Assembly (NCBI GenBank): GCA_013002045.1
Contig: JABDKV010000273.1
Span: 1 to 37,352 of the forward strand
Source: Gammaproteobacteria bacterium
GTDB lineage: Bacteria; Pseudomonadota; Gammaproteobacteria; Steroidobacterales; JABDKV01
DNA: 37,352 nucleotides
Direction of reading: 5' to 3'
This document shows positions 3,589 to 28,318 of the stretch, piece by piece. Made by a program: the position numbers and the translations under genes. The first letter of the stretch is position 1. Each line of letters starts with the position of its first letter. Below the pieces are notes generated by a model, which worked only from the letters and a program-made list of their open reading frames with translations, ran no database searches and had not been told where the DNA came from.

Positions 3589-4368
3589 TTAACTGTTGCG
3601 ACGATAAAGAATCATCGTCGTATCGTCGGGCTTGCTGGGAACGCCCGACTGCGGTTCCCGCATGCGCCGGCTAACGACATCGGCGACCCGTTGCGCCGCC
3701 TTTGCTATCGGTCCGACCCTGACGAAGTCTATCAGTTCGTCGAGATGCAAATTATCGAGCACCCCGTCGGTTGCCAGGATCAGCGTGTCGCGGCGTGCCA
3801 TGGTCAGGCTACCGCCAATCTCGATGCGCATGTCTTCGGCGCCGATCACGTTGGAGACGATGTGCCGGTCGGCATGGTGCATCGCCTCGCCCTCATCGAT
3901 CATACCGGCCTCGAGCGCATAGCCAACCGGCGAATGCGGAACCGTCTGCATATGCAGGCGTCCACGCTGTCCGACGAGTATCACGGTGGAATCGCCGACG
4001 TGTATCGGTCGTACCGTGTTCTTTTCAATCTGGGCAATGGCCACCGTGGTCGCAGCGCCCTGGCTCGATTCGAGTATCTGCCGGTTGGCCAGCTCGACAG
4101 CATCGATGACGTCCGACCGACCGCCGTCGTCCAGTGCCGCGAGCGCGCGGGTCACCGCAGCCGACGCCAGGTGCGCCGAGCGGCTGCCACCGACGCCATC
4201 GGCAACTGCCAGCACCGCACCGTCACCGAGCGGGACTACGACGGCGGCATCTTCGTTCGGCCCCGCCTTGTCCGGGCAGCGGAATGTAATCGCGACGGCC
4301 TCGCCACCAGGCAGGCTGACTGCCTCGGGCCCGAAGCTCTCGCGTTCATGCACGAGTAAGGCTTTCAC
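3589..4368 (-). CDS. PP2C-family Ser/Thr protein phosphatase
   Basis: Motifs NEDAAVVVPLGDGAVLAVADGVGG and LILATDGVLDNLHLDEL. Probable GTG start at 4368 (VKALLVHERESFG), overlapping the kinase stop by 1 nt (TAGTG). Confidence 0.88.
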   Translation of the reverse strand: MKALLVHERESFGPEAVSLPGGEAVAITFRCPDKAGPNEDAAVVVPLGDGAVLAVADGVGGSRSAHLASAAVTRALAALDDGGRSDVIDAVELANRQILESSQGAATTVAIAQIEKNTVRPIHVGDSTVILVGQRGRLHMQTVPHSPVGYALEAGMIDEGEAMHHADRHIVSNVIGAEDMRIEIGGSLTMARRDTLILATDGVLDNLHLDELIDFVRVGPIAKAAQRVADVVSRRMREPQSGVPSKPDDTTMILYRRNS

Positions 4369-5687: not shown

Positions 5688-5766
5688 CGGCGCAAGTTTA
5701 CGCGAGTCATTCGTCACAGGGCCATTATTGTCGTACTCTCCAGCCGGACTGCGACGGACCGACCAA

Positions 5767-6951
5767 GTGCGAATCATCACGTTCACAACGCTGTACCCCA
5801 ATGCGCAACAACCGGGGCACGGGATTTTCGTGCAAACCCGGCTGCAACGCCTGTTGCAGTTCGCGCCCGAAATCGACGCCAGGGTCATAGCACCGGTGCC
5901 GTACTATCCCCCCGGCCTGCCCGGCCCCGCGCATTATCGCCAGCTGGCCCGGGTCCCGAACACCGAGACCCTGCACGGGATCGAGGTCGATCATCCCCGC
6001 TTCCTGGTCCTGCCAAAGATCGGGATGAACCTGGCCCCGGGCACACTGGCGCGCGCCGCAATCACCGCAGCGCGGCGATTGCGTGCCACGGGTTTCGATT
6101 TCGACCTGATCGATGCGCATTATTTCTACCCCGATGGCGTGGCCGCTGCGCAAATGTCGCAGGCACTGGGTGTGCCTTTCACCGTGACCGCACGCGGTAG
6201 TGACATCAATGTCATAGCCGATTATCCAAAACCGCGTCAGCGTATTGTTGCCGCAGCCAATAACGCGGCACAGGTATTTACCGTCAGCGCAGCGTTGCGC
6301 GACCGACTGGTTCGGCTTGGTGCGGCGGCGGATAACATCGTGGTGGCGCGCAACGGCGTCGATCCAGACCTGTTCGCACCGGTGGACGACCGGGAGGCGC
6401 TGCGCCGCGATCTCGGGATGAGTTCCACGACACTGATCTCGGTCGGTAACCTCGTCGAATTAAAAGGCCATCACCTGGTCATCGACGCCCTCGGTGCGCT
6501 CGAGCAGACCCACCTGTGGATTATCGGCGATGGCCCGGAAAAGTCCCGCCTGGTGCGACAGGCGCAACAACTGGGGCTAACCGATCGTGTGCGATTCATA
6601 CCGCGCACCGATCAACAGACCCTGCGTCGATACTATGCTGCCGCTGATGCACTGGTGCTGGCATCGAGTCGTGAGGGCTGGGCCAATGTGCTGCTAGAAG
6701 CGATGGCTTGTGGCACCCCGGTCGTGGCCACGGCTGTATCGGGTAACCCCGAAGTCGTCGCCGATCCGGCGGCCGGTGAACTGGTGGACCAGCGCAGCAG
6801 TCACGGTCTGGCGGCAGGCATCCGGCGGCTGTTGCAACGCCAACCGGACCGAGGCCAGGTACGTCGCTATGCAGAACGCTTTTCCTGGGACGCGACCTCG
6901 GCTCTGCAGGCCAAAGTATTCGCGCGGATCATCCGGGAACGAAATTCGTAA
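5767..6951 (+). CDS. GT4-type glycosyltransferase
   Basis: VRIITFTTLYPNAQQPGHGIFVQTRL..., FTVTARGSDINV, VARNGVDPDLF, ASSREGWANVLLEAMACGTPVVATAVSGNPEVV. GTG start at 5767 preferred over the ORF-track ATG at 5680, which would overlap the divergent kinase start. Confidence 0.9.
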   Translation: MRIITFTTLYPNAQQPGHGIFVQTRLQRLLQFAPEIDARVIAPVPYYPPGLPGPAHYRQLARVPNTETLHGIEVDHPRFLVLPKIGMNLAPGTLARAAITAARRLRATGFDFDLIDAHYFYPDGVAAAQMSQALGVPFTVTARGSDINVIADYPKPRQRIVAAANNAAQVFTVSAALRDRLVRLGAAADNIVVARNGVDPDLFAPVDDREALRRDLGMSSTTLISVGNLVELKGHHLVIDALGALEQTHLWIIGDGPEKSRLVRQAQQLGLTDRVRFIPRTDQQTLRRYYAAADALVLASSREGWANVLLEAMACGTPVVATAVSGNPEVVADPAAGELVDQRSSHGLAAGIRRLLQRQPDRGQVRRYAERFSWDATSALQAKVFARIIRERNS

Positions 6952-7270: not shown

Positions 7271-7289
7271 ACACTGACAATCCCGTGCC

Positions 7290-7310: not shown

Positions 7311-7338
7311 ACACGCTAATCGGAATGAGAGTCGAACA

Positions 7339-7740: not shown

Positions 7741-8228
7741 TTCGCATGCTGATAGTTACACTCGCGCTGGTCGCCAGCGGCTGCACCACTGCTCGCCACC
7801 ACCAGTTTGAGGGAATCGAGTACACCCAGGTTTATCTGGCCGATATTGCCGCGATTCCGGCGGTACAACAGGTCGCGGCGACTGAGCTGGCAGACGCCTA
7901 CCAGCGCCTGGCCGTGGCGGAACTGATGGCCGAGCTGGGCCGCGATGAACGGGAAATAGAACACCAGGCCTATATGGCACGGCAATACGCCGCACTGGCG
8001 CTGGAAATGATGGAACTCGATGCCGCCCGAATCGAACTGGCGACGCGTCTCGACCAGGCGCCGCAACGCGAAATATCGCCGGTTCCCCGTCTTGCCGGAA
8101 TGACAATGATGCTAAAGCCGCGTCAGGTGGGAGCAACCCAGGCCGCCCGCGAACTGCGGGAATACCGGGTCGCGTTACGTTTCGATCGCCGTCTGTCGCA
8201 ACCTGTTGCCCAGGTCGCAGGACGCTAG
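7737..8228 (+). CDS. Helical lipoprotein (DUF4398-like partner)
   Basis: MIRMLIVTLALVASGCTTARHH lipobox; ATGA 4-nt overlap with the previous gene; Ala-rich helical body. Confidence 0.72.
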   Translation: MIRMLIVTLALVASGCTTARHHQFEGIEYTQVYLADIAAIPAVQQVAATELADAYQRLAVAELMAELGRDEREIEHQAYMARQYAALALEMMELDAARIELATRLDQAPQREISPVPRLAGMTMMLKPRQVGATQAARELREYRVALRFDRRLSQPVAQVAGR

Positions 8229-9238
8229 TCCCGATAGGTTGCCTGGCGCGCACGTGTCGTATCGAGCCCGATAAAAGTGCCGCCGTGCTCATCACATAGC
8301 AGGCGCATCAGCGTGGCAAAACGATCGCCACTTTCCTGCAGTCGCGGATCCTGCTGGAACATCACCGGGAATCCCACTGCGTGTATACGCACCAACCGGT
8401 TACCATCGGGTCCGACGCGATTAATCTTGTTTACGGCATTGAGCACCGGCTGTATCGAACCACCGGTAAACTCATCGCCGAATACGTAGAGACTGATTTT
8501 CTTGTCTGACGAATAGAAGGTCGATATCGCACGGGTAATACCTTCGACCGGACTCGAATTACTAAACGGCGTCCACGTGCGCAGCATGTCGACGATGGCC
8601 GTGCGCCGGGCCTTCGAGTCCGGAATCCAGCGCCCGCGATAACGACTGAACATGTATTGCCCCATGTCGTTCATCACCTGTATGCCCTTGACGTCAGGGT
8701 ATACCTCGAGCGTCTCCCGCACCTTCTCCAGTACCAGCGGCCAGGCATAATTCACCATGCTGCCGGAGGTGTCGATAATAAAAATAATGTACTCGCTGTC
8801 GGCGGGTATACCACCGACGACACCGGTGGGCTCGCTGTCGAACACCTGCAACGCATCGAGATCGCGTGTCAGCTTGTCGCGCGTAGCTGCCAGACGGCGC
8901 TCAAGTATGTTGGCAACAGTCGCATCCTGGTCGGACACATCAAACTCACCACGTACATCACTGAGCATATTTGACAGTCGCGCCAGCTCGCCTTCACGAC
9001 GCGATATCTCGTCGTTGCGATCTTCGAGCTCGGTCGACACCACCGCCACCTGGCTACGAAGTGCACGCGCCAGTTGCTGCTGCTCTTCTACCTGGGTGCG
9101 CAACGTATCGGTGGTGCGCTCCAGCACCATAGGCTCCGTGTACTTGGTAATGACCAGCAGCAACAGGATCGCCCCAAATCCACAGGCAATGGCGTCGAGA
9201 AAAGACAGGCTGAATGGTTGTATGTCCCGGCGTGCCAT
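8225..9238 (-). CDS. vWA-domain protein with N-terminal membrane helix (second of pair)
   Basis: MARRDIQPFSLSFLDAIACGFGAILLLLVITKYTEP; coiled-coil; YIIFIIDTSGSMVNYAWPLVLEKVRETLE (MIDAS DxSGS). Confidence 0.87.
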   Translation of the reverse strand: MARRDIQPFSLSFLDAIACGFGAILLLLVITKYTEPMVLERTTDTLRTQVEEQQQLARALRSQVAVVSTELEDRNDEISRREGELARLSNMLSDVRGEFDVSDQDATVANILERRLAATRDKLTRDLDALQVFDSEPTGVVGGIPADSEYIIFIIDTSGSMVNYAWPLVLEKVRETLEVYPDVKGIQVMNDMGQYMFSRYRGRWIPDSKARRTAIVDMLRTWTPFSNSSPVEGITRAISTFYSSDKKISLYVFGDEFTGGSIQPVLNAVNKINRVGPDGNRLVRIHAVGFPVMFQQDPRLQESGDRFATLMRLLCDEHGGTFIGLDTTRARQATYRD

Positions 9239-9239
9239 A

Positions 9240-10337
9240 TCAGGGCCAGTCGCGTGAGGGGCTCATGAACGATCCACCGGTCACCATAGCCAGTCGCCAG
9301 TACTGGCTGGCGGCGGCGGGGTCTCCTTCGATGGGCATCAATATCGTGTTGACCGGGATCCCGAATGGCAATTCGTCGAGCGCACGTCGAAACAGTCGCA
9401 AGCGGTTGCGTGCCGAGATCGTACGGCGATTGTTGGGTGTGACGCCGATGGTCGGCAGGCCGTCGGTAATCAGGATAATGTTGTCGGGCATCGGGTCCAT
9501 GTCACCGATAACCGATAGCGCATTAATCAGGCTGGTCCCGTTGCCGGGATCGAGCTGGCGCAATGCCGAGGCAACCTGCGCTATCTGTTGCTCGTCGTTG
9601 GCAGCAAACCAGCGCCCTTCGCTGGCGTCGATCACCGGGCCCGCCGTTTCATTAAAGTGATAAACCTGGAAGTCGGCCGTTTCCGGCAGATTCGTCAGCA
9701 ACCATTCGACTGTCTGCACCGAGCGCTGCCACTTCGGCCCCTCGAGCTTGCGTTCGAGCGGCATGTTGCGCCGACGGATGATGTTGACCAGGGTCGAGTC
9801 GAGCATGCTGGCCGATGAATCGAGCATAATCAGGATATTGCGGCCGCCGAGGCGCAACCCTGTCAGGTATTGGCGACTCCCGGTGCCGAGAAAACTGCGC
9901 GCTTCCAGTTGTGCCAGTCGTTTCTCTTCGGCGGCGCCTTCGAGGCGACGCGCCCGCGCTTCCAGGGCGCGGATATCCGCCATCATGCGCTCAACACTCT
10001 CGCGCTGCGCCATTGTCATTTCATTGCGGTCTGCCAGTTCGTCGCGCGCCTTGCCAGTCTCCTCGAGGATCTGACTGACCCGGGCCTGCAATTCAATTAT
10101 CTGTGTATCGGCTGACTGGATTTGCTGCTCGGAAGTGATCAGGAATTCCCGGTCCCTCTCGATTTGCTCTTCGAGTTGTTGTAATTCGATCAGCAACTCG
10201 GCGTTGATATCGTCTGAACGATCCAGCGTCGAGTGGTGAATCAGCATGAACACCAGCACCGTCGCACCGAAGCCACACGACATGATGTCGAGAAACGACA
10301 AAGAGAAAACCGTGAAGCGTCTTTGCTTGCGTGCCAT
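9240..10337 (-). CDS. vWA-domain protein with N-terminal membrane helix (first of pair)
   Basis: MARKQRRFTVFSLSFLDIMSCGFGATVLVFMLIHHSTLD; coiled-coil; NILIMLDSSASMLDSTL and NIILITDGLPTIG (vWA). Confidence 0.87.
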   Translation of the reverse strand: MARKQRRFTVFSLSFLDIMSCGFGATVLVFMLIHHSTLDRSDDINAELLIELQQLEEQIERDREFLITSEQQIQSADTQIIELQARVSQILEETGKARDELADRNEMTMAQRESVERMMADIRALEARARRLEGAAEEKRLAQLEARSFLGTGSRQYLTGLRLGGRNILIMLDSSASMLDSTLVNIIRRRNMPLERKLEGPKWQRSVQTVEWLLTNLPETADFQVYHFNETAGPVIDASEGRWFAANDEQQIAQVASALRQLDPGNGTSLINALSVIGDMDPMPDNIILITDGLPTIGVTPNNRRTISARNRLRLFRRALDELPFGIPVNTILMPIEGDPAAASQYWRLAMVTGGSFMSPSRDWP

Positions 10338-10341
10338 GTGC

Positions 10342-11700
10342 TCAGCTTTGTTCGCTCACCAGCAATAACACCTGGCTGCCGCCGCCGAGCCGGATAACAT
10401 CGCCGCTATGCACGACCGCGCTGCCGTCGACGCGAGCATCGTTGACCCAGGTTCCGTGACTGCTGTGGTCCTGCAGCCGCACCTGGCCGTCGTTCGGTAG
10501 TAAAGAACAGTGCGTTCGCGATATACCCGACAACTCGCCAGTCAGAACAATGTTTTTCCCCTCATCTCCTGGATCGCTGCCAAAAACCAGCGCACCCCCC
10601 TGCAGGCGCCAGGCGCGATCACCAACAATGACATGTGTTGGCGTGTCACCTGTGACGGGCGGTGTTGCTGACGGCGGCTGCAATCGAGCCCCTGTTTGCC
10701 CATCCCAGCGCACACTGGTGGCAAAGCTGACGGTGCCGTCACCACTGACAATTTCGTCGCGCAGCCGCAGCGCCCCCAGGGCGGCGGCGCCACGCGGCAG
10801 CTCGAGCACTTCGCTTGCCTCGGATGCCAGCGCCTTATGCAGTCCTGGCAACTGCTGCAAGCGGTGGTCGATCATCAACACCAGCTGCTCGCCTGGTCGG
10901 GTCAGAGTCGCCAGGTGGCGGCGCATCCTCGCCAGCAACGATTCGAGTGCCGTGCCAATGACATCGCGTCCGACCTCGACCGAGTGCGTTTTGTCGTCGA
11001 ATTCGACGCTGGCACTAACACTGCCGTCACGCTCGATAGCGCTGAGCCAGTCGGGCAGTCGATCGAACATCTGTTGTTCGGCTGCCGCCGAGTGCATTGG
11101 GTCATAACGGGTGTTGCGCACAAACAAATCGGATACGACACGTGCGGCGGCGGCATGCATTTCGCGTTGACCGCATTCGTCGACCACCTCTACCTTGTCG
11201 CGCCGCAGTCGCCCGCCCTGCTGTAACCGTGTCAGCACCACCTGGTGCAACATCAGGTCGATATGGATGATCTGCTTCCCGGGCTTTGGCGTCGTCGTCG
11301 CCGCCACGGCGGTGTCAACCAGTGCGCTGACCGGCAACCCGGCTTCGCGCGCGATACCGAGTAACAGGCTTAGTTGTTCGCGACTATAGCTGCCGGGAAC
11401 AGTCAGCAACACCTCATCGGCAGTCGTTTCGAGGCTGCTAAAAACATCATGCAGGTGGTGATAGGCAAGATCGGCCATTGTCGCTGCGCCACGCACGCCC
11501 GCGGGTAATGCGGCCAGGCTAAGCTCCTGCCAAAAACGGCTGAACACACGGGAGGGTTGCAACCGGGCCTGGGCCGCAGCAGCGGCTCCGGTAGTGACAC
11601 TACCATCAACGAGTGCATAACCGGGACTGTCCACACGCACGCCGCCGCTATCGACACCAAGCAAGCCGGCATCGTTGATTTCGATTGCGAGCCTGCCCAT
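10342..11700 (-). CDS. Hsp70/actin-fold ATPase-like protein with C-terminal FHA domain
   Basis: EVLLTVPGSYSREQLSLLLGIAREAGLPVSALVDTAVAATT (Hsp70-like); C-terminal LVFGSDPGDEGKNIVLTGELSGISRTHCSLLPNDGQVRLQDHSSHGTWVNDARVDGSAVVHSGDVIRLGG (FHA). Confidence 0.82.
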   Translation of the reverse strand: MGRLAIEINDAGLLGVDSGGVRVDSPGYALVDGSVTTGAAAAAQARLQPSRVFSRFWQELSLAALPAGVRGAATMADLAYHHLHDVFSSLETTADEVLLTVPGSYSREQLSLLLGIAREAGLPVSALVDTAVAATTTPKPGKQIIHIDLMLHQVVLTRLQQGGRLRRDKVEVVDECGQREMHAAAARVVSDLFVRNTRYDPMHSAAAEQQMFDRLPDWLSAIERDGSVSASVEFDDKTHSVEVGRDVIGTALESLLARMRRHLATLTRPGEQLVLMIDHRLQQLPGLHKALASEASEVLELPRGAAALGALRLRDEIVSGDGTVSFATSVRWDGQTGARLQPPSATPPVTGDTPTHVIVGDRAWRLQGGALVFGSDPGDEGKNIVLTGELSGISRTHCSLLPNDGQVRLQDHSSHGTWVNDARVDGSAVVHSGDVIRLGGGSQVLLLVSEQS

Positions 11701-12518
11701 CAGCGCACCTGCAGGTGTTGAACGAGTCGGTCGTCGCAGTAGTCCTGCGACTCCAGCACCAGCCGTTCCTGCAGTAGCTGCAACTGGTGCATCAGGAACA
11801 TCAGCACGATGCTTAACAGCAAAGCAATGAAGGTTGAATTAAAGGCCACACCCAGGCTCTCGGTCACGCCCGAGATATTGCCTTCGACAGCCTGGTGGGC
11901 CTGGCCCAGCGCTTCACCGATGCCACGAACGGTACCGATAAAACCGATCGACGGAATGGCCCACGCAATGTAGCGCACCATCGACAGTTCCGAATCGAGG
12001 CGTTCCGACTCCGACTCACAAACGGTCCGTACCGCAGTCGAGACATCCTGGATATTGCGCGTCGAGCGGAATCGATGCAGTGCAGTCAACAATGCCCGGG
12101 GCAGTAGCCGGTTGCGTTCATGCTCGGGTAAAGCCTGCACCGGACGCGAGAATTGCCGCGTATCCTCGGGCAGGATACTCATGCCTTCGTTAAGCGGCAC
12201 CAGGTCACGTTGCAACATGCGCCGCTCACCCAGCGACTGCCATGCTTTGAAACCCATGATAGCCATGGCCCACAGCATCAGGATAAAACAGGTTTCCTGT
12301 TCGAAGTCGCGGATCAGGACATAGATCGATCGCTCCGGCACGTAGTTCTCGTCCACCGCCATCTGCGCCCGTTGCTCGGCCATCACTTCGGCTGCCTGCG
12401 GTCGTACCACCGAGACATACATGCCATGCACGATAATGACTGAAACGACGAGGGCGAAAACCTGGAACAGGAACTCGACCGGGATGTTGTGGCGCTTGAC
12501 GCCGGCTACGCTGGCCAT
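11700..12518 (-). CDS. MotA/TolQ/ExbB-type proton channel family protein
   Basis: RYIAWAIPSIGFIGTVRGIGEALGQAH...GVTESLGVAFNSTFIALLLSIVLMFLMHQLQ matches the TolQ/ExbB/MotA two-helix signature; two N-terminal TM segments. Confidence 0.85.
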   Translation of the reverse strand: MASVAGVKRHNIPVEFLFQVFALVVSVIIVHGMYVSVVRPQAAEVMAEQRAQMAVDENYVPERSIYVLIRDFEQETCFILMLWAMAIMGFKAWQSLGERRMLQRDLVPLNEGMSILPEDTRQFSRPVQALPEHERNRLLPRALLTALHRFRSTRNIQDVSTAVRTVCESESERLDSELSMVRYIAWAIPSIGFIGTVRGIGEALGQAHQAVEGNISGVTESLGVAFNSTFIALLLSIVLMFLMHQLQLLQERLVLESQDYCDDRLVQHLQVR

Positions 12519-12520
12519 GC

Positions 12521-12718
12521 TCAGATATCCGTCGGGAAGGCGACGGCCGTATCGGCTTCGACTTCCTCGGTAGGTGTAAACGATTCGCGATCAACGCTGG
12601 CAGGCGCCTGTTGCTCGGTCTCGGTATCAGTCTCGCTGCTTTCCTCGACCGGTTCCTCCTGGGCCAGCACTGGCCAGGCCGCCAGTGACAGTACAGCCAT
12701 CATCATCAGCCATCTCAT
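12521..12718 (-). CDS. Small acidic exported protein (65 aa)
   Basis: MRWLMMMAVLSLAAWPVLAQEEPVEESSETDTETEQQ...: signal peptide with ALA-Q cleavage site; 2-nt gap to the next gene. Confidence 0.65.
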   Translation of the reverse strand: MRWLMMMAVLSLAAWPVLAQEEPVEESSETDTETEQQAPASVDRESFTPTEEVEADTAVAFPTDI

Positions 12719-12742
12719 GCGTATTCTCCTGCGATAAACGGT

Positions 12743-15151
12743 TTAGCGGGCATAGCGTGCCAGCCTGAATCCAACATCTTCGCGTCCACCCCTGCCGTAA
12801 TCGCGGTAAGCACCGCGTAACTCGACTATGCCACCGTGCTTCCAGCTGCTGCCACGAATCACGTGACGATTGCCCCGCCGCGGGCCGACCGGATCGACAA
12901 GGGACAGGTAAGGATCGGCAGTCGACGCTTCGTAAATATCATGCATCCACTCGGCAACGTTGCCATCGAGGTCACGCAGTCCAAGTGCATTAGCGGGAAA
13001 ACTCCCGACCGGCGCAGTCACACTGAAGCCGTCGTCGTAATTGTCGAGGCGTTGCACTACCAGATTGCGTGCGGCATTGTCGGCAAGATTGGCACTGCCT
13101 TGTGGTGGTGGCAGTGTATCTCCCCACGGATACTTCGTCGCGCGTGCGCCGCCGGCAAAACGCGTAACCCAGACCCATTCTGCCTCGGTGGGCATGCGGT
13201 ACCCGGTCGTCATCGGCCGTCGACCGACCAGCCGACCGTCGCGCTCGACATAGGCCGGGGGCAGTCCTTCACGCTCACTCAGCCAGTTGCAGTAGCGCGC
13301 CGCCTGTTGCCACCCCAGGCGTACCACCGGCTGATCGTCGCCTTCGAGGCTGAGCCCGCCGACAAAGCCGGAGTTATGCGTGTCCATGAATTCGCGATAC
13401 TGCGCGTTGGTGACTTCGTTCTCGCTGATATAAAACTCACGTGTCAGTTCGACATCGCGACGGATCTCGTTACTACGCCGGCCCTGTTCACGCCGCGGCG
13501 AACCCATCTGCAGTGCCCCGGTTGGCACCAGTACCAGCGTATGCCCTTCGTCCGAGGTAATCACCGGGTCCAGCACCGCGGCCTGGGCCTCGGCAATGGT
13601 CTTGAGAATGACACTGACTCGCTGCTCGATCCCTTCACGCGGGGTGATGGTTTCGATATGCGGCGCGTAACCCTTCTTGTGTATCTCGATACGATGCGGC
13701 GCCGTCGTCAACGACAAGGTCTGGTTAGCACTGCCGCGACTTGTACCGTCGACCAGCACCTCGGCATCCTCGGGACTGGCCACGATACGCACGCTACCGA
13801 GGATGGGTGCCAGGCGCACCGACACTTCCGTTTGTTCGCCCGGCGCCAGCTCCACACTACGGGTAGCGGTGCGGTAACCGGGACGGCTCAATACGACCTG
13901 GTGCGACGCATCCGGCGTAACTGCGACCGACAGAGGGGTGCGCCCCTGGAACTGGCGATCGACACTGACACTGGCACCCGCGGGGTTCGAAGTCAGCATC
14001 ACGATGCCATCGGCTGGCTCAAACGCGATTGCTTCGAGTTCGAGCGGTTGCCCGGCAACGACTGTGACCGTGCGTTCGACGGGCTTATAACCATCGAGTT
14101 GCAAGAGCAGTTGCTGTTCACCGGCTTCGACTTCAGCGACCAGCGGGGTTTGCCCCAGCGTCACACCGTCACTGCTCAGGGTCGCGCCGGGCGGCGTCGT
14201 CTCGATCGTGACTGGGGCCCAGTTTGGCTGCAATACCACCTCGACCGACTGACGTTGGCCACGGCCCGAGATTTCGATCTCCTGTTCGAACGGCAAATGG
14301 TTGCGGGCGATAATACGCAAGCTATGCAACCCGGGTGCGACCTCGGCATCAGCCAGTGGTGATGTACCAATCTCCTGGCCATCGACGACGATACGGGCAC
14401 CGTTGACCGCGCCGGTATCGACCGTCAGCAGGCCCGGTAATTTCTCCATCTGCAGAGCGAACTGCTGGTTGCTGGCATTGCCCACCGTGATGGTCTCACG
14501 CAAGGGCTTGTAGCCTTCGAGATCGGCCGCCACACGGTACTGGCCGGGTCGCAGGAGGTAACGCCCACCAACCCGCGGCTTGAACACCGCCCCTTGCAGT
14601 TCGAGCGACTGCGGCTGCGGCGCAATTGCGATATCGATCGAGCGTGCGGTAAACATGAACCAGGCAGCGATACCCAGCAGTAAGGCCGAGACGGCCACGC
14701 CAAGCTGTAACCATGGCAATGCGCGACCACCCGCTGCAGCGCTGCCGTGACCGGGATTGAATGCAACCGGTTCGATCACAGCATGCGAATCAGCGGCCTG
14801 TGGCGGCGGAGTCTGGGCAGCGCTGCGTGAACGCACATGCAGATCGATTTCATTGCGCCGGATACGACATACGATATGCGCTTCGGGCAATACCACAATA
14901 TTTCCATCACCGAGCCAGCAAGACTGCTCGCATGGCGAGCCGTTCACGCGCACACCGGCATCAGAGTCTGACTCGATGAATGGCACCCCGTCGACAATGC
15001 CCAGTCGACCCAATACCCGGTCATCACTGCCGCTGACCGGGATATCGGCACCGCGACCGCCGATTTGCAACGGTAGTTCGTCCGCCTGCCAGGTACGGGT
15101 GCCACTGTCGTCGTGGATACGGATGACCGGGTTCAAATTCGTTCCTCGCAC
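12743..15151 (-). CDS. FHA-like / TM / PEGA repeats / FGE-sulfatase-modifying-like protein
   Basis: N-terminal FHA-like (LPLQIGGRGADIPVSGSDDRVLGRLGIVDGVPFIESDSDAGVRVNGSP); TM LGVAVSALLLGIAAWFMF; repeated PEGA units (GYKPLRETITV, GYKPVERTVTV, GYRTATRSVEL, GYAPHIETITP); C-terminal FISENEVTNAQYREFM...YRMPTEAEWVWVTR...LGLRDLDGNVAEWMHD...HVIRGSSWK. Confidence 0.86.
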   Translation of the reverse strand: MRGTNLNPVIRIHDDSGTRTWQADELPLQIGGRGADIPVSGSDDRVLGRLGIVDGVPFIESDSDAGVRVNGSPCEQSCWLGDGNIVVLPEAHIVCRIRRNEIDLHVRSRSAAQTPPPQAADSHAVIEPVAFNPGHGSAAAGGRALPWLQLGVAVSALLLGIAAWFMFTARSIDIAIAPQPQSLELQGAVFKPRVGGRYLLRPGQYRVAADLEGYKPLRETITVGNASNQQFALQMEKLPGLLTVDTGAVNGARIVVDGQEIGTSPLADAEVAPGLHSLRIIARNHLPFEQEIEISGRGQRQSVEVVLQPNWAPVTIETTPPGATLSSDGVTLGQTPLVAEVEAGEQQLLLQLDGYKPVERTVTVVAGQPLELEAIAFEPADGIVMLTSNPAGASVSVDRQFQGRTPLSVAVTPDASHQVVLSRPGYRTATRSVELAPGEQTEVSVRLAPILGSVRIVASPEDAEVLVDGTSRGSANQTLSLTTAPHRIEIHKKGYAPHIETITPREGIEQRVSVILKTIAEAQAAVLDPVITSDEGHTLVLVPTGALQMGSPRREQGRRSNEIRRDVELTREFYISENEVTNAQYREFMDTHNSGFVGGLSLEGDDQPVVRLGWQQAARYCNWLSEREGLPPAYVERDGRLVGRRPMTTGYRMPTEAEWVWVTRFAGGARATKYPWGDTLPPPQGSANLADNAARNLVVQRLDNYDDGFSVTAPVGSFPANALGLRDLDGNVAEWMHDIYEASTADPYLSLVDPVGPRRGNRHVIRGSSWKHGGIVELRGAYRDYGRGGREDVGFRLARYAR

Positions 15152-17226
15152 CGTATGGTCAATGGTGATGGTCTTGAGCCGGGTTGGACCACCAACTCGT
15201 GTCGCACGTCACGGAAACCATCGCAGCGACCGGTAACGGTATAACGACCCGGCAGCAATTCGATCTGTTGCTGCTCGAAGCGTCCGAGCGGGCCAACGCG
15301 GTAAATCGTCACCTCGGTTTGCCGATCGGACTGCAGCACAACTGTGACGGGTTCATTGGCTCGCGCCAGCATTGCCTGCAGGTCTGCACTGAGTTGTCGT
15401 AGTCGTGGCGCGGGAGTCTGTACATCGCTGATCTGTCGCACCAGTGTGTTTGCCTGGCGACGACTTTCATCGGTGGTGAAATCGCCGTCTTCGAGCAGGT
15501 TCTGTGACCTCACGGTCAGCGATGCCAGCAATCGCGCGCGATCACGACCCTGCTGGGCGAATACCAGTGCCGGGTCGAGCTGTAGTAGCTCGGTATACAG
15601 GGCGATGGCTTCCTCCCATTGCTGTGCCTGTTCAGCCGCGCGGGCGCTCGCACGCAACCGCCGAATACTGGCCTGGTGCGAAGCGACGCGAACCTGGGTG
15701 CGGGCATCGCGCACGGCAGCGGAATCCGGTCGCAGCTCGGCAGCACGGTTAAGAGCCGTTCGCGCCGCGGCGTAGCGACCCTGGTCCAGCGCTGTGAATG
15801 CCGCACTCATCGCTGCGTTGAAATCGCGCTCGGCGACCATGTCTTCAAGGTCGGAGATTTCATTGCTAACAATGGCATCCTCGGGATCGATCAGTAGTAC
15901 TTCCTGCAGTCGCGCTATTGCGCCTTCGTAGTCTCCTGCAGTGCGCAGGCGTGTTGCCGCGGCCCGGATCTCTGCCGTCTGGTTGAGAAACTGCGCCCGC
16001 CGCATCGCCTCTCGCACCGCCTCGTCCTCGGGCTCGATCGCCAGTGCAATACGAAAGTGTTCTGTCGCGCCGTCGCCATCGGCTGCGGCAAATGCCTGGA
16101 AACCGGCGTCACGATGAAATGCGGCTATGCCAGGCGCTTCGTTACGCAACTGCGTCAGTAATTGATCGGCAGCGGTCAGTTCGCGGATTGCGGCAACCAG
16201 TTCGAACTCACCGGCCAGTCGCTCGCCTTCCTGCAACAGGGCCTGGGCGCGTGCTGCGCGTTGCTCGGCCCAGCGACTGACATCCATACTGTTGAGCGCC
16301 AACCAGTTTTCGTAAACAACCCCGCGCAGTCGTTTGACTTCCTGCTGTTGTTGCTGCAGACGCACTGCAGCCGCGCTTTGCCGCTCCACGGCCGAACCAC
16401 CACCGGTGGCGGTGCCCGGGTCGAGCCAGCCCGGTAGCACAAACGCCAGCGCCAGCGTGGCAACGGCAGCCACACCGAGCAATATCCATCTCCACGACAA
16501 TCCTGTCGGTGCCGCATGGTCGTCGCTGGTCGCAACGGCGTCGCGCCCGATCGGCTCGATGCGCTCAAAGTGGTCTGATTGCGTGCCTCGTTCGGTCAAC
16601 ATTCGATCCATTTTCGTTGCCACTTCAGACAACGACAATTGCAAATTGTTACCCAGCAGGTCGCTCACCAGTCGCGCCAGGTCGCGATCGGCGAGTGCCG
16701 CTCCATCGTCACCCGGCACCAGGCCGGTGGCCAACTCATGGACCATTTCGCCCAGGGCGCGCATGTCATCAGCGACAACGGCCTCGCCAGCAGCGGGATC
16801 GAGCAGACGCACCCGACCATCGTCGCCGACGAGAATATTGTGCAGGCTCAGGTCACCGTGGGCGAGACCACGACCATGGGCGTGATGCAGGGCATCGATG
16901 ACCATGCGCAACAACGGCAGCCAGCGCTGACGTGGCGCACCTATATAGTCTCGTAATTCGTGCCCCTCGACTGCTTCCAGTGCGATGAAGGGCCGCGGCT
17001 GATCAGCATGCAGCGCCAGCACCCCGATGTAAGCCGGATGCGCCATGCTACGCAGCCAGTCGGCCTCATGCGCCAGCCTCTCGGGATTGTCGTCGAACTT
17101 CAGCGCGACGAGTCTGTCACCGTCGTGATCCAGCGCCTGCCAGACCTGCGCTCGTCCGCCGCTGCGGATCGGCGCGATCAATTCGAAGCGATTGGCGTGC
17201 CGCTGACCCGACTGCAGCCGGCTCAT
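15133..17226 (-). CDS. Atypical membrane Ser/Thr kinase-like protein with periplasmic TPRs and PEGA-like C-terminus
   Basis: FELIAPIRSGGRAQVWQALD, VALKFDD, LAHGDLSLHNILV, LLDPAAG; TM WILLGVAAVATLALAFVLPGW; TPR-like repeats; C-terminal PEGA-like ELLPGRYTVTGRCDGFRDVRHELVV. Confidence 0.82.
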   Translation of the reverse strand: MSRLQSGQRHANRFELIAPIRSGGRAQVWQALDHDGDRLVALKFDDNPERLAHEADWLRSMAHPAYIGVLALHADQPRPFIALEAVEGHELRDYIGAPRQRWLPLLRMVIDALHHAHGRGLAHGDLSLHNILVGDDGRVRLLDPAAGEAVVADDMRALGEMVHELATGLVPGDDGAALADRDLARLVSDLLGNNLQLSLSEVATKMDRMLTERGTQSDHFERIEPIGRDAVATSDDHAAPTGLSWRWILLGVAAVATLALAFVLPGWLDPGTATGGGSAVERQSAAAVRLQQQQQEVKRLRGVVYENWLALNSMDVSRWAEQRAARAQALLQEGERLAGEFELVAAIRELTAADQLLTQLRNEAPGIAAFHRDAGFQAFAAADGDGATEHFRIALAIEPEDEAVREAMRRAQFLNQTAEIRAAATRLRTAGDYEGAIARLQEVLLIDPEDAIVSNEISDLEDMVAERDFNAAMSAAFTALDQGRYAAARTALNRAAELRPDSAAVRDARTQVRVASHQASIRRLRASARAAEQAQQWEEAIALYTELLQLDPALVFAQQGRDRARLLASLTVRSQNLLEDGDFTTDESRRQANTLVRQISDVQTPAPRLRQLSADLQAMLARANEPVTVVLQSDRQTEVTIYRVGPLGRFEQQQIELLPGRYTVTGRCDGFRDVRHELVVQPGSRPSPLTIRCEERI

Positions 17227-17232
17227 CGATGG

Positions 17233-18441
17233 CTATTCTGGCTCGCCGGGCGTCGCGGCACCGACCACCGGCAAACCGGTCTCGGTCGAATAGATCTCAC
17301 GCAGCAATTCCCGCCACTGTTCGAATTGCTCATCGACCGACCCGGTCAGCGTAATGGTTTTGCCTTCGATTTCGAGTACGGCAGGGCGCACCTCTAGTTC
17401 GAAGGAATCACCGAGCTCGCGCATGGTTTCGGCATGCACCTGGATTTCTGGTCGCATCGGTAACGTGCTGAGCACGGCCGACACACCGGCGAGCGCGCCG
17501 ACACGACCCGAGTAACTGGCCCATGGGTCATCGCTACTGGCGTCAACCGCCAGACCACCGACAATCAGGGCGGCACCGGCAATGGTGCGGTTCTTGATCT
17601 CGCGTTCCAGCCGACGCAGCTCGACGACTTCTTCGTAATTAAAGCGCCGCCAGTCGTCATAGGCCGGTCCCACCTGCCTGGCAAACACGCTGTAGTGCTG
17701 GTCGAGCGTATCGATGAACAGCAGGTCTCGCTCACGAATCTTGCGTACCCGCCCGAGCATGGGATCGTCACGCGCGGGCAGCCGGCGTACGACGGTACGC
17801 CCGTCGTTGTCAGCGACGTACCCGGCAAATGATGTCGGTGCAATCTCCGCGGCAAAACGCAGCTCGGTGATCTCGCGCAGACGTGCGATCTGCTCGTTAT
17901 CAAGCGTGTTACGGAAAGCAAGCAGGTCATTGGCCACTTCGTTGTACAGGTCCTGGAACGGATCCTGATCGGACGCTGCCATATCGTCACGATAATTCAG
18001 TCGCCCCGCAAGGTCGCTGTACTCGTGCGCATCGATCCAGACACGACCCGTCGCATCGATCGCGCTGATCTCGAGCACCAGGCGCTCTCCATCCGACTGG
18101 ATAATACGAGCCGTTATCGTCAGGTCGACCGTTTCGCTGCCGCGTGGCAGCACCCTGACGGCACCCCAATGGCCGGTTTCCTGCAGCGTGTCACGCAGCA
18201 CATAGGGCATGTACCGCGCTTCGGCATCGCGAACGCCGGCGACCAGGCGCATCTCGTTCTGCTCGCGTATATCGTCCGGCACATTGGCATCGAATACGCG
18301 CACGCCGACATCGAGTAACAGTTCTTCGGGCACACTCTCAACCGCCGACAGGGCCGGGGTTGCGTTAATGGTTATAACTTCCTCATGTACGCATCCGGCC
18401 AGCACCAGTATGCCGGTTGCTATCAGAACTGCTCTCATCAT
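17233..18441 (-). CDS. Lipoprotein of unknown function
   Basis: MMRAVLIATGILVLAGCVHEEV lipobox; 402 aa, 4-nt overlap with the upstream gene; no recognised domain. Confidence 0.7.
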   Translation of the reverse strand: MMRAVLIATGILVLAGCVHEEVITINATPALSAVESVPEELLLDVGVRVFDANVPDDIREQNEMRLVAGVRDAEARYMPYVLRDTLQETGHWGAVRVLPRGSETVDLTITARIIQSDGERLVLEISAIDATGRVWIDAHEYSDLAGRLNYRDDMAASDQDPFQDLYNEVANDLLAFRNTLDNEQIARLREITELRFAAEIAPTSFAGYVADNDGRTVVRRLPARDDPMLGRVRKIRERDLLFIDTLDQHYSVFARQVGPAYDDWRRFNYEEVVELRRLEREIKNRTIAGAALIVGGLAVDASSDDPWASYSGRVGALAGVSAVLSTLPMRPEIQVHAETMRELGDSFELEVRPAVLEIEGKTITLTGSVDEQFEQWRELLREIYSTETGLPVVGAATPGEPE

Positions 18442-20231
18442 TGACTCGTAGTGGCCTCGCCTTGTTCGAGGCTTTCTTTATAGGCGTAGTATTCCTGCCA
18501 CAAGCGCTCACGTAACTCCGGGTCGGTCTCGGCAACGGCCGCTTCGCGCAGCTGCCGCGCAACAATATCGTCGTCCTGCGCCGGTCCGCGCTCCTCGAGT
18601 GCGAACTGCTCGTTCTTTGTCCCGTCGGCAGTCGGGTCTTTGCGGCCATCGGCGTTGCGCTCACGATCGGCCCAGCGACCGGCACGGCGATTTTGTGGAT
18701 TATCGCCGGAACCACGTGCGCCGTCGCGGCTGTTAGCCATCGCGGCATTGCTGTCGCTTTCGATACCGGATGTCGCGGTGTCACCCATGACGGCTCCACC
18801 GACATCGTCACCGGCATCGCTCATACCAGGCGCAGCCGAGCTACCTGATTCATTCATCTTGCCATCGAAAACTGCCAGCGACTTGTCCAGCTGCTGGTCG
18901 AGCACCGCGACGCGCTCGTCAGCCGACATCTCGCCCTGGTCCGGCTCCGCTGCTTCGGTCTTGCCGACCATCGCTATCAGCGACCCTGCCGCATTTAACA
19001 GGTCAGCGGTGGCCTCAAGAGTCTCACCGGCATTTTTCATGTCCTGCAGCAACACGCCAACAACCATCGATACGCCACGAGCGAACTCTTCCATTGCGCG
19101 TTGGATCTCGGCCGGGTCAGTAATCGGTTCGGCATTCGGATCGGCACCGGCGGCTGCCGCCATAACGGCAATCGCAGAAGCCACGACCGCCTCGGCGGCC
19201 GCCTCCAGCGCCGCCCGTGCAGCAGCCATTTGTACCGCTTCAGCATCGGCATCGCCATCACCGGCACCAGCTGCGGCGATCAGTGCCCGCCGGGCACGAT
19301 TCAGTGCCGCGTTGGCAGTTGCCAGGGCATCGTCGGCGATCTGTAACGAACCGGCTGTAATCTGTTGTCTGTTTGGTTGACCGCGCTGCCCTTCGCTTTC
19401 ATTGATGACGGCGAACGGATCGAAATTTTCGGGTCCGTCGTTGTTGCTGCTGGTTCCCTGGTCCCCCACCTCGTCACCACCGCTGGCTTCATCGGTTCCC
19501 TCCCCGGGAGCGGCGCTGTCATTGCCGTCGCTGGTGGCGCTCGATGGCTGGCCACCCTGACCGCCGTCGGCATTGCTGGAGGTGTCATTGGTAGACCCGG
19601 GAGTCACCCACGGATCGAAAGAATCGCGATCACCCGAGCCTTGCGCATCAGTCATGACGACCTCGCGTGCACGCTCGATAGTCGATTCGGCTTCGGCAAC
19701 TGCCTCGGCCGCGGCATCGACGGCGGCATTGGCAGCTTCGAGTGCTGCAGCAGCGCCAACATCTTCGGTGGTCGCAGAGTCGCCTGCAGGCCGGCCATCA
19801 TCGGCAGTTGGCGCGTCCGGGTTATTCGTCCCTGCGCCTGGCCGCTGGGCTGAGGCGACGCGAACATCGGCATCGCCGTCCTCGCCGCCGCGCTGCCCTT
19901 CAAGACGTCCGCTCTCGCCGCTGCTACCGGTGACAGCACCGTTGCGACTGGTGCGCGTCGGAACTTGTCCGGTTTGCGGTGCGGTTGCAGTGGAATTTGG
20001 GCTACTTTGCCCGCGCGACGAAGACTGCCCGCGAGTCCCGGGATCGGGCATTTGGCTCGTGGGGCTGCTCGATGGTACCGGCGTACCCGAGGACGTACTG
20101 CCACCGCCGGCGGGTCCGCCACCATCACCTTCGGACTCCTGTCGTTGCGGTGTACTGCTGAAACAGGCAGACACGACAAATGGCACGACTATCGCCGCTA
20201 CGAAGATTCTCAACCGGTTGGAAACTTTCAT
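18438..20231 (-). CDS. Low-complexity Ser/Gly/Ala/Asp-rich lipoprotein
   Basis: ATG at 20231 (MKVSNRLRIFVAAIVVPFVVSACFSSTPQ) with lipobox VSAC; long Gly/Ser/Thr/Pro linker followed by Ala-rich helical segments. Confidence 0.72.
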   Translation of the reverse strand: MKVSNRLRIFVAAIVVPFVVSACFSSTPQRQESEGDGGGPAGGGSTSSGTPVPSSSPTSQMPDPGTRGQSSSRGQSSPNSTATAPQTGQVPTRTSRNGAVTGSSGESGRLEGQRGGEDGDADVRVASAQRPGAGTNNPDAPTADDGRPAGDSATTEDVGAAAALEAANAAVDAAAEAVAEAESTIERAREVVMTDAQGSGDRDSFDPWVTPGSTNDTSSNADGGQGGQPSSATSDGNDSAAPGEGTDEASGGDEVGDQGTSSNNDGPENFDPFAVINESEGQRGQPNRQQITAGSLQIADDALATANAALNRARRALIAAAGAGDGDADAEAVQMAAARAALEAAAEAVVASAIAVMAAAAGADPNAEPITDPAEIQRAMEEFARGVSMVVGVLLQDMKNAGETLEATADLLNAAGSLIAMVGKTEAAEPDQGEMSADERVAVLDQQLDKSLAVFDGKMNESGSSAAPGMSDAGDDVGGAVMGDTATSGIESDSNAAMANSRDGARGSGDNPQNRRAGRWADRERNADGRKDPTADGTKNEQFALEERGPAQDDDIVARQLREAAVAETDPELRERLWQEYYAYKESLEQGEATTSQ

Positions 20232-20551: not shown

Positions 20552-21187
20552 ATGAATAAATTCCGGGTTACCCCATTCCTGACAATATTGCTGTGCGCCT
20601 GCAGTACCACGGTGCCGCCGACAGATACCGAGTTTCCGACACCGCTGGTCGAGGACTTGCCGGCTGCGGTCGGTATTTACTACGACGACGAGTTACGCAA
20701 TTTTACCTATAACGAAACCGTCTCCGACGGTACCAGCTGGACCATCGAGCTGGGACAGTCGAACCTGCGCCTGTTCGACCGTCTGCTGGGCGCCATGTTC
20801 GATCGCACGGTGCAGTTGCGCAGCATTGACGATGTACGCAACGACCCGACGCTGGACGGCGTCATCCGCCCGGTTCTCGAAGAGTACGCATTCCTGACGC
20901 CAAACGAACTGGGGTCGCGCTTCTATGCTGTGTCCATACGCTACCGGATATACCTGTACGATAACCAGGGCAACGAGATCGCAGACTGGCCGATCAATGC
21001 CTACGGGCAGAGTCGCGCTGCTGTCCTGAACGCCGGTCGCATGCGAGTCGGGCCGTTGCAGGACGCCACCAATCTGGCGATGCGTGACGCCGCAGCGGGT
21101 GCGATAATCCTGCTGCGCGAACAACCGGAGATCATGGCGCTGACGACGGAGGGTACGGCTGACGATGCAGCGATGTTCAGTGAATAG
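20552..21187 (+). CDS. Lipoprotein of unknown function
   Basis: MNKFRVTPFLTILLCACSTTVPP lipobox; 211 aa. Confidence 0.72.
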   Translation: MNKFRVTPFLTILLCACSTTVPPTDTEFPTPLVEDLPAAVGIYYDDELRNFTYNETVSDGTSWTIELGQSNLRLFDRLLGAMFDRTVQLRSIDDVRNDPTLDGVIRPVLEEYAFLTPNELGSRFYAVSIRYRIYLYDNQGNEIADWPINAYGQSRAAVLNAGRMRVGPLQDATNLAMRDAAAGAIILLREQPEIMALTTEGTADDAAMFSE

Positions 21188-21845
21188 AATTATTAGCTTT
21201 GTCACGCTCTTTGCCATGGTCGGGTCCAGCGGATGCGTTACCTCGCGCATTGAACAGGCACGTCATACCAGCACTGGGCTGCAGGACGGCGACGGTGTCG
21301 TCATCCTTGCGCAACGCCAGAATGTCGACTACCAGACAGAAGACGGGTTCGTCAGTTGTCTCAGTAATGAGCTCGAAAACAAATCGCTCGGTATTACAAT
21401 GCATCCCGAGCAGGAGTTCATGGACATGCTGTTTCCGTGGTTCGAGCCTGCCCATGCACCAACTCATGCAGAGGGCCTGCGTGAGTTACTGGCCCGCCCA
21501 GGTGTGGCCGAGCGTATAGCCGAGACCGGTGTGCGTTATCTCGTCTGGATTGACGGCAATACCGAGATCGTTGACGGCGGCGGCAACCTGTCGTGTACAG
21601 TTGGCGCAGGTGGTGCCGGTTGCTTCGGCTTTCAGTGGTGGGAAAACGATTCGACCTACGAAGCAGCGATCTGGGACCTGGATACCCTCGAGCATGCAGG
21701 CACGATATCGACAGAGTCGGTAGGCACGTCCTACCTGCCCGCTATAGTCATTCCCATTCCGATCATCGCACGCACCAAGTCAGCCGCCTGTAATGGTCTG
21801 GCGCGTCAGCTAAGGGAATTCCTGGTCGCTACTCCCATCGATTGA
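21180..21845 (+). CDS. Lipoprotein of unknown function
   Basis: Probable GTG start at 21180 (VNRIISFVTLFAMVGSSGCVTSR), overlapping the upstream gene by 8 nt; lipobox SSGC. Confidence 0.7.
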   Translation: MNRIISFVTLFAMVGSSGCVTSRIEQARHTSTGLQDGDGVVILAQRQNVDYQTEDGFVSCLSNELENKSLGITMHPEQEFMDMLFPWFEPAHAPTHAEGLRELLARPGVAERIAETGVRYLVWIDGNTEIVDGGGNLSCTVGAGGAGCFGFQWWENDSTYEAAIWDLDTLEHAGTISTESVGTSYLPAIVIPIPIIARTKSAACNGLARQLREFLVATPID

Positions 21846-23159
21846 CTCTGACCACAATTCCGGGTCGGTACCTTCTCCCCGAAGCACGTAGGTATAGCGG
21901 AAAGTCACCCCTTCGGTCGCTACCGCAGTACCGTTTTCGAAGCGGGGTCTGAATTTGGCTTTATGCAACGCGGTCCTGAAGTCGCGTTTCATCTGCCAGT
22001 GAGCGGTGCCACCGACGATCTGTACGTCACGCGCAATGCCTGCTGGCGTCACAGTGAAACTCACATCGATATGCACTTCGGGTGCGCCACGCAACATGTT
22101 TTCGTCGGTCAACGGTGGGTGAAAACGCAGGCGGAACGGTCGGCCGAGCAACGCCTCGGCCTTTTCCGGGTTTGCACCCTCATCGGTTATCAGGTTCCAG
22201 GCGCGAGTGTAAACCTCCATCGCCTTGTCGCGGCGACGCGCGAGCATGAACCAGTCACCCAGTTCAACCAGCGAACCGGCGTGCTCCACCACATCGGCGT
22301 TGGGATTACTGGCATAGATACCGATCGCTCGTTGCAGCGTGGCCTGGCCTTCCTTGAGCGGCTCGTCCTGCACCAGGTAGGTTCGGGCCAAACGACGTAA
22401 CGGGTCGGTAATTCGCAAATCATCGGGGCCGTAGGCATTCTCGATCAGTTCTACAGCGCGACGGTAGTTGCGACGCGCTACCGGATGCAACCCAATTCGT
22501 TCATACCAGGCTCCCAACTTGTTGAGCGCCGGCACCAGCTCGGGCGAGTCCGGACCGTACTGCCGCTCATTCACCCGGAAAGCAAAACGGTTCTCGCGGT
22601 TGGCCTCACCGAGCTGGCCCATCTGGAAATAGCTTTCGGCCAGCTGGTCGGCAATATCGAGTTGCTCGAGGTTCAGAATGCCAAGCTTGCGATGGGTGAT
22701 ATGTCGCGCACGCCGCAATGCTTCTACGGCACTTGCCGATTTACCAATCCGGTTATAGACACTGGCGAGATCGCTTAACGGCTGCACCAGCGCATAGGAG
22801 AAAATATCGTCACGTGCTGCGGTGATGGCTATCGCCCGCTCGAGCGATTGCGCAGCCGCTGGCAGTTTTTTGGCGGCAAATTGCAGATCAGCCAGTTGCA
22901 GCAGCGGGTCGACCAGCTCGCGGGCATCGTTGCCGTGCGCTGTTCCCAGCAGACTGACCATTTGCCGCTGTGCCTGCAGCGCTGCCTCGAGATCGTTGCG
23001 TTGCGACGCCAATTCGAACGCCGCACGTGCCGCAGCAATATCCCGATCGATCTGACTCACGGCCTCGCCCGGCTCCACTTCTGCCGCCAATTCCTCGGCA
23101 GCGAGGGCAACCGGCGGCGTCAACAGAAGCAAAGTCGTTGCGAGCAGCCAACGTCTCAT
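21810..23159 (-). CDS. TPR-repeat protein with C-terminal TonB-like domain
   Basis: Signal peptide; TPR-like helices (AAAQSLERAIAI, SAVEALRRARHI, VARRNYRRAVELIENAYG); C-terminal VHIDVSFTVTPAGIARDVQIVGGT...FRTALHKAKFRPRFENGTAVATEGVTFRYTY. Confidence 0.8.
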   Translation of the reverse strand: MRRWLLATTLLLLTPPVALAAEELAAEVEPGEAVSQIDRDIAAARAAFELASQRNDLEAALQAQRQMVSLLGTAHGNDARELVDPLLQLADLQFAAKKLPAAAQSLERAIAITAARDDIFSYALVQPLSDLASVYNRIGKSASAVEALRRARHITHRKLGILNLEQLDIADQLAESYFQMGQLGEANRENRFAFRVNERQYGPDSPELVPALNKLGAWYERIGLHPVARRNYRRAVELIENAYGPDDLRITDPLRRLARTYLVQDEPLKEGQATLQRAIGIYASNPNADVVEHAGSLVELGDWFMLARRRDKAMEVYTRAWNLITDEGANPEKAEALLGRPFRLRFHPPLTDENMLRGAPEVHIDVSFTVTPAGIARDVQIVGGTAHWQMKRDFRTALHKAKFRPRFENGTAVATEGVTFRYTYVLRGEGTDPELWSESIDGSSDQEFP

Positions 23160-25613: not shown

Positions 25614-25616
25614 AGC

Positions 25617-28284: not shown

Positions 28285-28318
28285 CGGTACGACGCCATCC
28301 CCGGGCGTCTACCTGCTG

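Follow-up and report, generated by a model that had tools for sequence, protein, structure and literature searches.

A nine-gene operon of Gammaproteobacteria with a TolQ-like protein and two vWA proteins as a candidate proton-driven trans-envelope machine

To our knowledge, few proton-driven 5:2 motors have been described, namely the flagellar stator, Ton, Tol, the motor of type IX secretion and gliding (T9SS/gliding), Agl and Zorya. A further class was predicted in 2025 from an Idiomarina seed, in which TolQ is combined with paired TPH-vWA proteins and the function is unknown (PMC12204202, Mol Biol Evol 2025, Fig. 4c-d). In that class, reported from Proteobacteria and Verrucomicrobia, TolQ-like genes accompany heterologous pairs of transmembrane (TM)-vWA genes and tolR, exbD and motB are absent; AlphaFold 3 models put the conserved proton-binding Asp of the helix inside the pentamer, and the TolQ-like subunit of the class has conserved threonines that line the pore as a ring (PMC12204202). 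Here we describe an operon of this kind in a 37,352-nt stretch, hereafter the window, from a Gammaproteobacteria bacterium (JABDKV010000273.1, contig 90 in a 339-contig, 3.1-Mb draft genome). Nine genes lie on its minus strand between 8225 and 20231, and we consider it fairly probable that together they encode one trans-envelope machine, which would transmit proton-driven, phospho-gated force from the inner to the outer membrane. In transcription order, the genes are:

18438..20231, minus strand: lipo1, a lipoprotein (lipobox ...VSAC) predicted to reside in the outer membrane, in which a long low-complexity linker leads to a conserved C-terminal tail (sequence, family alignment)
17233..18441, minus strand: lipo2, a predicted outer-membrane lipoprotein (LAGC) with an alpha/beta N-terminal domain and long helices (68-sequence alignment, AlphaFold2 (AF2) model)
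15133..17226, minus strand: atypical Ser/Thr-kinase domain, TM helix (about 248-266), periplasmic TPR and a weakly PEGA-like C-terminal end (Pkinase 8.6e-10, TPR)
12743..15151, minus strand: degenerate FHA-like domain, TM helix (about 150-168), five PEGA domains and an FGE-like domain (Pfam, hhalign)
12521..12718, minus strand: small exported acidic protein of 65 aa, signal peptide ...WPVLA|Q, ending VAFPTDI-COOH (C-terminal motif)
11700..12518, minus strand: TolQ/MotA/ExbB-like channel subunit, 272 aa (Pfam MotA_ExbB; invariant channel-helix residues)
10342..11700, minus strand: Hsp70-like nucleotide-binding-domain fold with a C-terminal FHA domain and no TM helix (FHA 1.3e-12; AF2 model)
9240..10337, minus strand: vWA1, with an N-terminal TM helix (Asp17), a coiled-coil-like region and a periplasmic vWA domain (VWA_2 E 1.7e-4)
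8225..9238, minus strand: vWA2, a vWA1 paralogue with a TM helix (Asp15) and a vWA domain (hhalign to vWA1)

The junctions range from a 19-nt overlap (kinase/PEGA-FGE) to a 24-nt gap (PEGA-FGE/small protein). Between these extremes, lipo1 and lipo2 overlap by 4 nt and the TolQ-like and Hsp70-FHA genes by 1 nt, and gaps of 6, 2, 4 and 1 nt separate lipo2 from the kinase gene, the small gene from the TolQ-like gene, Hsp70-FHA from vWA1, and vWA1 from vWA2, respectively. The initial annotation of this DNA, made from the letters alone, had described nine tight same-strand genes at 8225-20231, which proved accurate, and its domain calls were recovered with Pfam (MotA_ExbB, FHA, PEGA and FGE, Pkinase and TPR, VWA_2), the MotA/TolQ/ExbB-like assignment with an E of 2.5e-15.

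The TolQ-like protein and the vWA pair form the putative engine. Residues P189, G192, F193, G195, T196, R198, N227 and T229 of the TolQ-like protein were identical in 151/151 sequences; T219 was conserved in 150/151, and the threonines T196, T219 and T229 are candidates for such a pore ring. The protein scored below the NCBIfam TolQ equivalog cut-off (33.9 vs 221 bits) and matched no curated TolQ, ExbB or ZorA model, and the genuine TolQ of this genome is encoded elsewhere (288.9 bits). vWA1 and vWA2 are full-length paralogues (hhalign 99.8%, E 2e-29). Both have a short basic N-terminal stretch, one hydrophobic helix with FLDxxxCGFGA, a coiled-coil-like stretch and a vWA domain; VWA_2 was matched in 21/21 vWA1 members with Pfam, and vWA2 alone gave a weak VWA match (E 0.11). 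The metal-ion-dependent adhesion site (MIDAS; DxSxS + T/S + D) is complete, and invariant or nearly so, in both paralogues (D173-S175-S177-T268-D292 in vWA1; D156-S158-S160 ... D255 in vWA2). The codons of the helix aspartates are:

10287..10289, minus strand: codon of the invariant vWA1 TM aspartate D17 (SFLDIMSCGFGA)
9194..9196, minus strand: codon of the invariant vWA2 TM aspartate D15 (SFLDAIACGFGA)

The biology of 5:2 motors is established and provides the basis for reading the vWA proteins as an axle. Since the TM aspartate was found in 142/142 vWA1 and 134/134 vWA2 sequences, and no TolR, ExbD or MotB gene is present in the operon, the vWA proteins are by their anatomy likely the equivalent of the TolR/ExbD/MotB axle. 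An ion-driven TolQ-like channel with vWA partners had been proposed from the letters; the motor reading is supported, and the vWA proteins appear to be more than partners.

Conservation was assessed in 97 distinct loci with enough flank, duplicates (e.g., L071 and L214) having been collapsed. All eight large genes occurred in the same order in 59 of them; a further 11 lacked only the Hsp70-FHA gene and otherwise kept the full order, and 16 of the remainder lacked only a match to the kinase-TPR model, most of these holding a kinase-TPR fusion claimed by the second-kinase model. vWA1 and the TolQ-like gene were present in 97, PEGA-FGE in 95, vWA2 in 93, lipo2 in 92, lipo1 in 90 (hidden Markov model match) and Hsp70-FHA in 85, and the TolQ-like gene, vWA1 and vWA2 were found together in 93/97. 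Within the taxonomic order of the window, the TolQ-like gene was detected in 83/97 genomes (38/43 genera), and across the class vWA1 was found in 32 of 369 sampled genomes. The operon is also present in a second class of the same phylum. Named carriers include Woeseiaceae, Microbulbifer and Exilibacterium, and the nearest named relative in the scan was the Gammaproteobacteria metagenome-assembled genome Ww579, whose TolQ-like protein is 86% identical. Pairwise protein identities correlate across the operon (r 0.25-0.87, with 19/21 pairs ≥0.5; permutation count 0/300 in all but one protein pair), as joint vertical descent would predict. The possibility that the genes are not kept together, which would have undone the first proposal, was addressed by this neighbourhood survey and did not hold. 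We conclude that: i) the arrangement is far beyond chance, and ii) the gene set is a real, vertically inherited operon.

Two variants of the layout were also observed. In L065 and L066 (genomes G012 and G025) there is a second, divergent copy of the operon that lacks Hsp70-FHA and resembles the version of the other class; the TolQ-like protein of the G012 second copy shows 38% identity along most of the protein. In L181 and L185 the TolQ-like gene is placed after vWA2, instead of before Hsp70-FHA.

Since the set behaves as a core inherited operon, our best guess for the outer-membrane process that it serves is envelope maintenance or remodelling, not defence. A MotA-like channel with a TM-Asp partner, a weak ZorA match (E 7.6e-4) and PADLOC kinase matches would fit an anti-phage system of the Zorya type, but the ZorA match reached 12.4 bits against a cut-off of 500, the ZorB peptidoglycan-binding domain and ZorC, ZorD and ZorE are absent, and the kinase matches are generic. 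Unlike patchy defence islands, the operon is near-universal and order-conserved in its taxonomic order, and no match to it was found among 72,556 plasmids. A Zorya-type role is therefore very improbable. Zorya, PD-T4-6 and MADS were rejected as assignments, the matches being weak or to generic kinases only.

The scaffold between the membranes would be provided by two bitopic proteins. Their kinase/FHA modules had been placed in the cytoplasm and their TPR/PEGA/FGE modules in the periplasm by the initial annotation, a topology that is supported and conserved as a set. The window PEGA-FGE protein carries five PEGA domains plus FGE (E 1.9e-42), and PEGA and FGE domains were present in 26/26 members of the family. 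The FHA domain that had been assigned to its N-terminus was not seen by Pfam in any member (0/26); profile-profile comparison did reveal a degenerate FHA fold there (hhalign 95.9%, E 6e-9), and this FHA-like N-terminus is mostly limited to loci with a kinase. Where the FGE active site would lie (residues 762-786), none of the 26 members has a Cys, and the whole domain contains at most one. A true formylglycine-generating enzyme was rejected, the catalytic cysteine pair being absent in 26/26 members. In the T9SS, the cysteine-less FGE fold of PorK is a structural ring hub above a proton motor (PMC12421860). Since the catalytic cysteines are gone here, as reported for PorK, a docking role is the better reading of the FGE domain than an enzymatic one.

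This resemblance raises the question of whether the operon encodes a proteobacterial counterpart of the T9SS/gliding core. In that case, surface proteins would be moved or exported by a ring of PEGA-FGE in the periplasm, with the motor driving the ring. The best NCBIfam match of the FGE domain is GldK/PorK (E 1.6e-34), the PorK hub likewise sits above a proton-driven motor, and gliding has been suggested for vWA motors (PMC12204202). The match to TIGR03525 nevertheless falls well under the cut-off (119.9 vs 350 bits), the PEGA-FGE protein has an internal TM helix and no lipobox, i.e., it is anchored in the inner membrane and is no lipoprotein, and no gene for a Sov-like translocon, PorN or an adhesin could be recognised in the operon or in its conserved neighbourhood. 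We regard a secretion or gliding machine as unlikely, although the best placed of the alternatives.

The remaining cytoplasmic protein and the kinase domain constitute the phospho-signalling layer. The AF2 model of the Hsp70-FHA protein has a predicted local distance difference test (pLDDT) score of 93.5; its best PDB matches are Hsp70s (Foldseek best E 2e-17), as the initial annotation had it, with a TM-score of 0.72 to the DnaK nucleotide-binding domain, by target length. The FHA domain replaces the Hsp70 substrate-binding domain, and its phosphothreonine-site residues S394, R395, H397 and N420 are intact in the window protein. A near-invariant RFDP motif (residues 198-201) was observed in the Hsp70-like domain, where the nucleotide motifs look lost. 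In the kinase domain, which is predicted from sequence, K43, D125, N130 and D143 are present and DFG reads DPA. Among 119 distinct scorable loci, the kinase was fused to TM-TPR in 56 and encoded as a separate open reading frame in 9, and 54 had none in the locus. When only loci that also showed vWA1 were counted, Hsp70-FHA accompanied 63/63 kinase loci and 34/52 kinase-free loci; the other 18 kinase-free loci, which include every locus retrieved from the other class, also lack Hsp70-FHA. The phosphothreonine site was intact in 34/39 kinase loci and in 0/22 kinase-free loci, which supports the suggestion that FHA would read the kinase signal in the window genome. The earlier idea that the FHA-Hsp70 protein reads phosphorylation is supported in this respect, the layer being limited to one lineage group.

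The kinase/FHA pair was rejected as the core of the system, given the 18 distinct loci without both. Because roughly half of the distinct loci are kinase-free, and 18/52 of those lack Hsp70-FHA as well, phospho-signalling is a nested, lineage-specific add-on and not the core. The same loci bear on a regulatory or mechanosensing device, in which the vWA/TPR/PEGA layer would sense the envelope state and the motor-like channel would report to the kinase and FHA layer. The linkage of a kinase to an FHA reader, joined in some genomes by a PP2C phosphatase, would suit such a device; a signalling output is not the basic role, since these 18 loci retain the core with neither kinase nor FHA protein, and we judge this explanation improbable.

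The two lipoproteins and the small exported protein could connect the scaffold to the outer membrane. lipo1 gave no Pfam match, and its tail, DDDIVARQLREAA..E.DPELRE.LW.EY..YK, is helix-like and conserved across the aligned family, distant members included. lipo2 of the window also gave no Pfam match, its relatives giving scattered weak ones only. The AF2 model of lipo2 (pLDDT 90.1) found nothing significant in the PDB; the top ten hits were all TolB, with E 0.013 or worse, and a TolB-like assignment was not retained, as it is suggestive only. The small exported protein, which the initial annotation had passed over, holds the most striking conserved motif of the operon:

12524..12538, minus strand: codons of the conserved C-terminal FPTDI tail (C-terminal motif conservation)

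Its acidic body is variable and its C-terminus follows the pattern F.PSE.I..D..V.FPxDI-COOH. The tail can be written [FYM]Px[DN]I-COOH, and the relaxed motif [FLIMYW]P.[DN][IVLF] was found at the stop in 125/126 distinct loci, compared with 0/126 on the reverse strand and 1/1260 shuffles. In the other class (e.g., L202 and L203) the protein is reduced to a signal/anchor helix plus about 16-18 residues, e.g. SIQLDSPATFPVDI, ending FPVDI, and the gene is just upstream of the TolQ-like gene. The ends of the small protein and of lipo1 look like tethers with docking motifs. It is a matter of speculation whether these tails bind the vWA metal sites, to which they would offer an acidic ligand, or TPR grooves, which would take up the C-terminal carboxylate.

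A trans-envelope machine could work as follows. The TolQ-like protein, judging from homology and its invariant residues, would form a proton-conducting ring; vWA1 and vWA2 would supply the two Asp helices inside it, replacing TolR, ExbD or MotB, and proton flow would move the periplasmic vWA heads. Through their intact metal sites, the heads may engage the inner-membrane-anchored TPR and PEGA-FGE proteins, with the FGE fold as a docking hub, as well as the tethers, i.e., the small exported protein with its [F/Y/M]Px[D/N]I tail, lipo1 and lipo2. Force would then be passed on to the outer membrane, much as in Tol-Pal or the T9SS core. In the lineage group of the window, a threonine phospho-switch seems to have been layered on, with the kinase domain placed on the TPR protein, where co-occurrence is observed and the function is putative; Hsp70-FHA, with its intact phosphothreonine pocket, would read the signal and gate assembly or activity of the motor.

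Several observations weigh against this scheme. We infer the equivalence of the vWA helix to TolR from position, invariance and gene content, and the vWA helices gave no Pfam match to ExbD or MotB. The partners of the small-protein and lipo1 tails are guesses. By reading, the Hsp70-like DLGTT and GGGTFD motifs are not preserved and the ATP motifs look degenerate. The kinase-FHA association reflects about four kinase changes on the tree, i.e., 3-4 independent pairs, and its cases are not statistically independent; a statistical proof of coupling was dropped, these pairs being too few.

More specifically, the operon might represent a complete and undescribed class of trans-envelope rotary machine. 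In it, vWA1 and vWA2 would form a heterodimeric axle inside the TolQ-like ring, the PEGA-FGE and TPR proteins would serve as an inner-membrane scaffold, lipo1 and lipo2 would be the outer-membrane components, and the [F/Y/M]Px[D/N]I tail of the exported peptide would be a dedicated docking ligand for a vWA metal site or TPR groove; in one lineage group, threonine phosphorylation would act as the switch, with a chaperone-fold FHA protein as its reader. We put this detailed version forward tentatively, at somewhat less than even chances. The candidate binding tails are short enough for peptide assays, and Microbulbifer and Exilibacterium include carriers in culture.

Outside the nine genes, the following accessory candidates were identified:

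20552..21187, plus strand: accessory lipoprotein x211 (43/88 loci; side and strand vary)
21165..21845, plus strand: accessory lipoprotein x226 (42/88 loci, with x211 and TPR-TonB_C)
21810..23159, minus strand: exported accessory protein with TPR and a TonB_C-like end (TPR_12 3e-20, TonB_C 7e-5; 42/88 loci)
4368..5888, minus strand: possible accessory second Ser/Thr kinase with a zinc-ribbon match (Pkinase 1.4e-30)
3589..4401, minus strand: possible accessory PP2C-type phosphatase adjoining the second kinase (PP2C_2 5.6e-12; linked in 16/88 loci)

The first three (20552-23159) were nearly always found together, in at least three different arrangements beside the operon, suggesting an accessory module. 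Close relatives of the window also have the second kinase and PP2C genes (3589-5888) linked to the operon; in other families the pair lies directly upstream of lipo1. Two adjoining DUF4398 lipoprotein genes (7285-8228, plus strand) are convergent with vWA2 and lie outside the conserved neighbourhood examined. PstCAB-PhoU-PhoR-like phosphate genes in a row beside an M48 protease gene (23156-30434) are ordinary.

When compared with known systems, the operon resembles Tol-Pal (TolQRA-TolB-Pal) in having a putative TolQ-family ring, driven by the proton motive force (PMF) and coupled to outer-membrane lipoproteins, and the non-significant hits of lipo2 are to TolB; it differs in that TolR, TolA, TolB and Pal are absent and the genome has its own TolQ elsewhere. 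With the T9SS/gliding core (GldKLMN/PorKLMN) it would share a PMF motor and a periplasmic cysteine-less FGE-fold protein, but here that protein is anchored in the inner membrane, vWA heads would replace the GldM arch, and GldN and Sov are lacking. The type VI secretion system (T6SS) has a threonine-phosphorylation pathway, PpkA/PppA/Fha. Like it, the operon places a TM Ser/Thr kinase and an FHA reader (with PP2C linked in some loci) on an envelope machine; unlike it, the operon has no T6SS genes and its kinase-FHA layer is optional. The present analysis hints at a way in which a motor could acquire a phospho-switch. Myxococcus AglRQS also combines a single MotA/TolQ homologue with two different Asp-helix partners, but AglQ/AglS are reported to be MotB homologues, and the account of that system includes neither a vWA axle nor a PEGA-FGE or FPxDI protein (PMC9389320).

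The closest likeness is to the TolQ-TPH-vWA class, with which the operon shares a TolQ-like gene beside two different vWA genes, the TM Asp and the absence of tolR, exbD and motB, a likeness judged from the described features of the class. The text of PMC12204202 covers the motor-vWA pair only; it makes no mention of kinases or forkhead domains and is silent on the kinase-TPR, PEGA-FGE and Hsp70-FHA proteins, lipo1/lipo2 and the FPxDI protein. In a search of the open-licence literature, we found no paper that combines these modules or describes the whole cassette. The view that this is not a named system, put forward when the cluster was first noticed, holds for the full cassette and not for the TolQ-vWA pair, which had been published as a predicted class (PMC12204202). 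The engine class, already predicted in 2025, is not new; the full architecture, the tail motifs and the layered phospho-switch are apparently new. The 2025 proposal of a vWA-axle motor came without a parts list or function, and the present analysis provides a concrete, conserved parts list.

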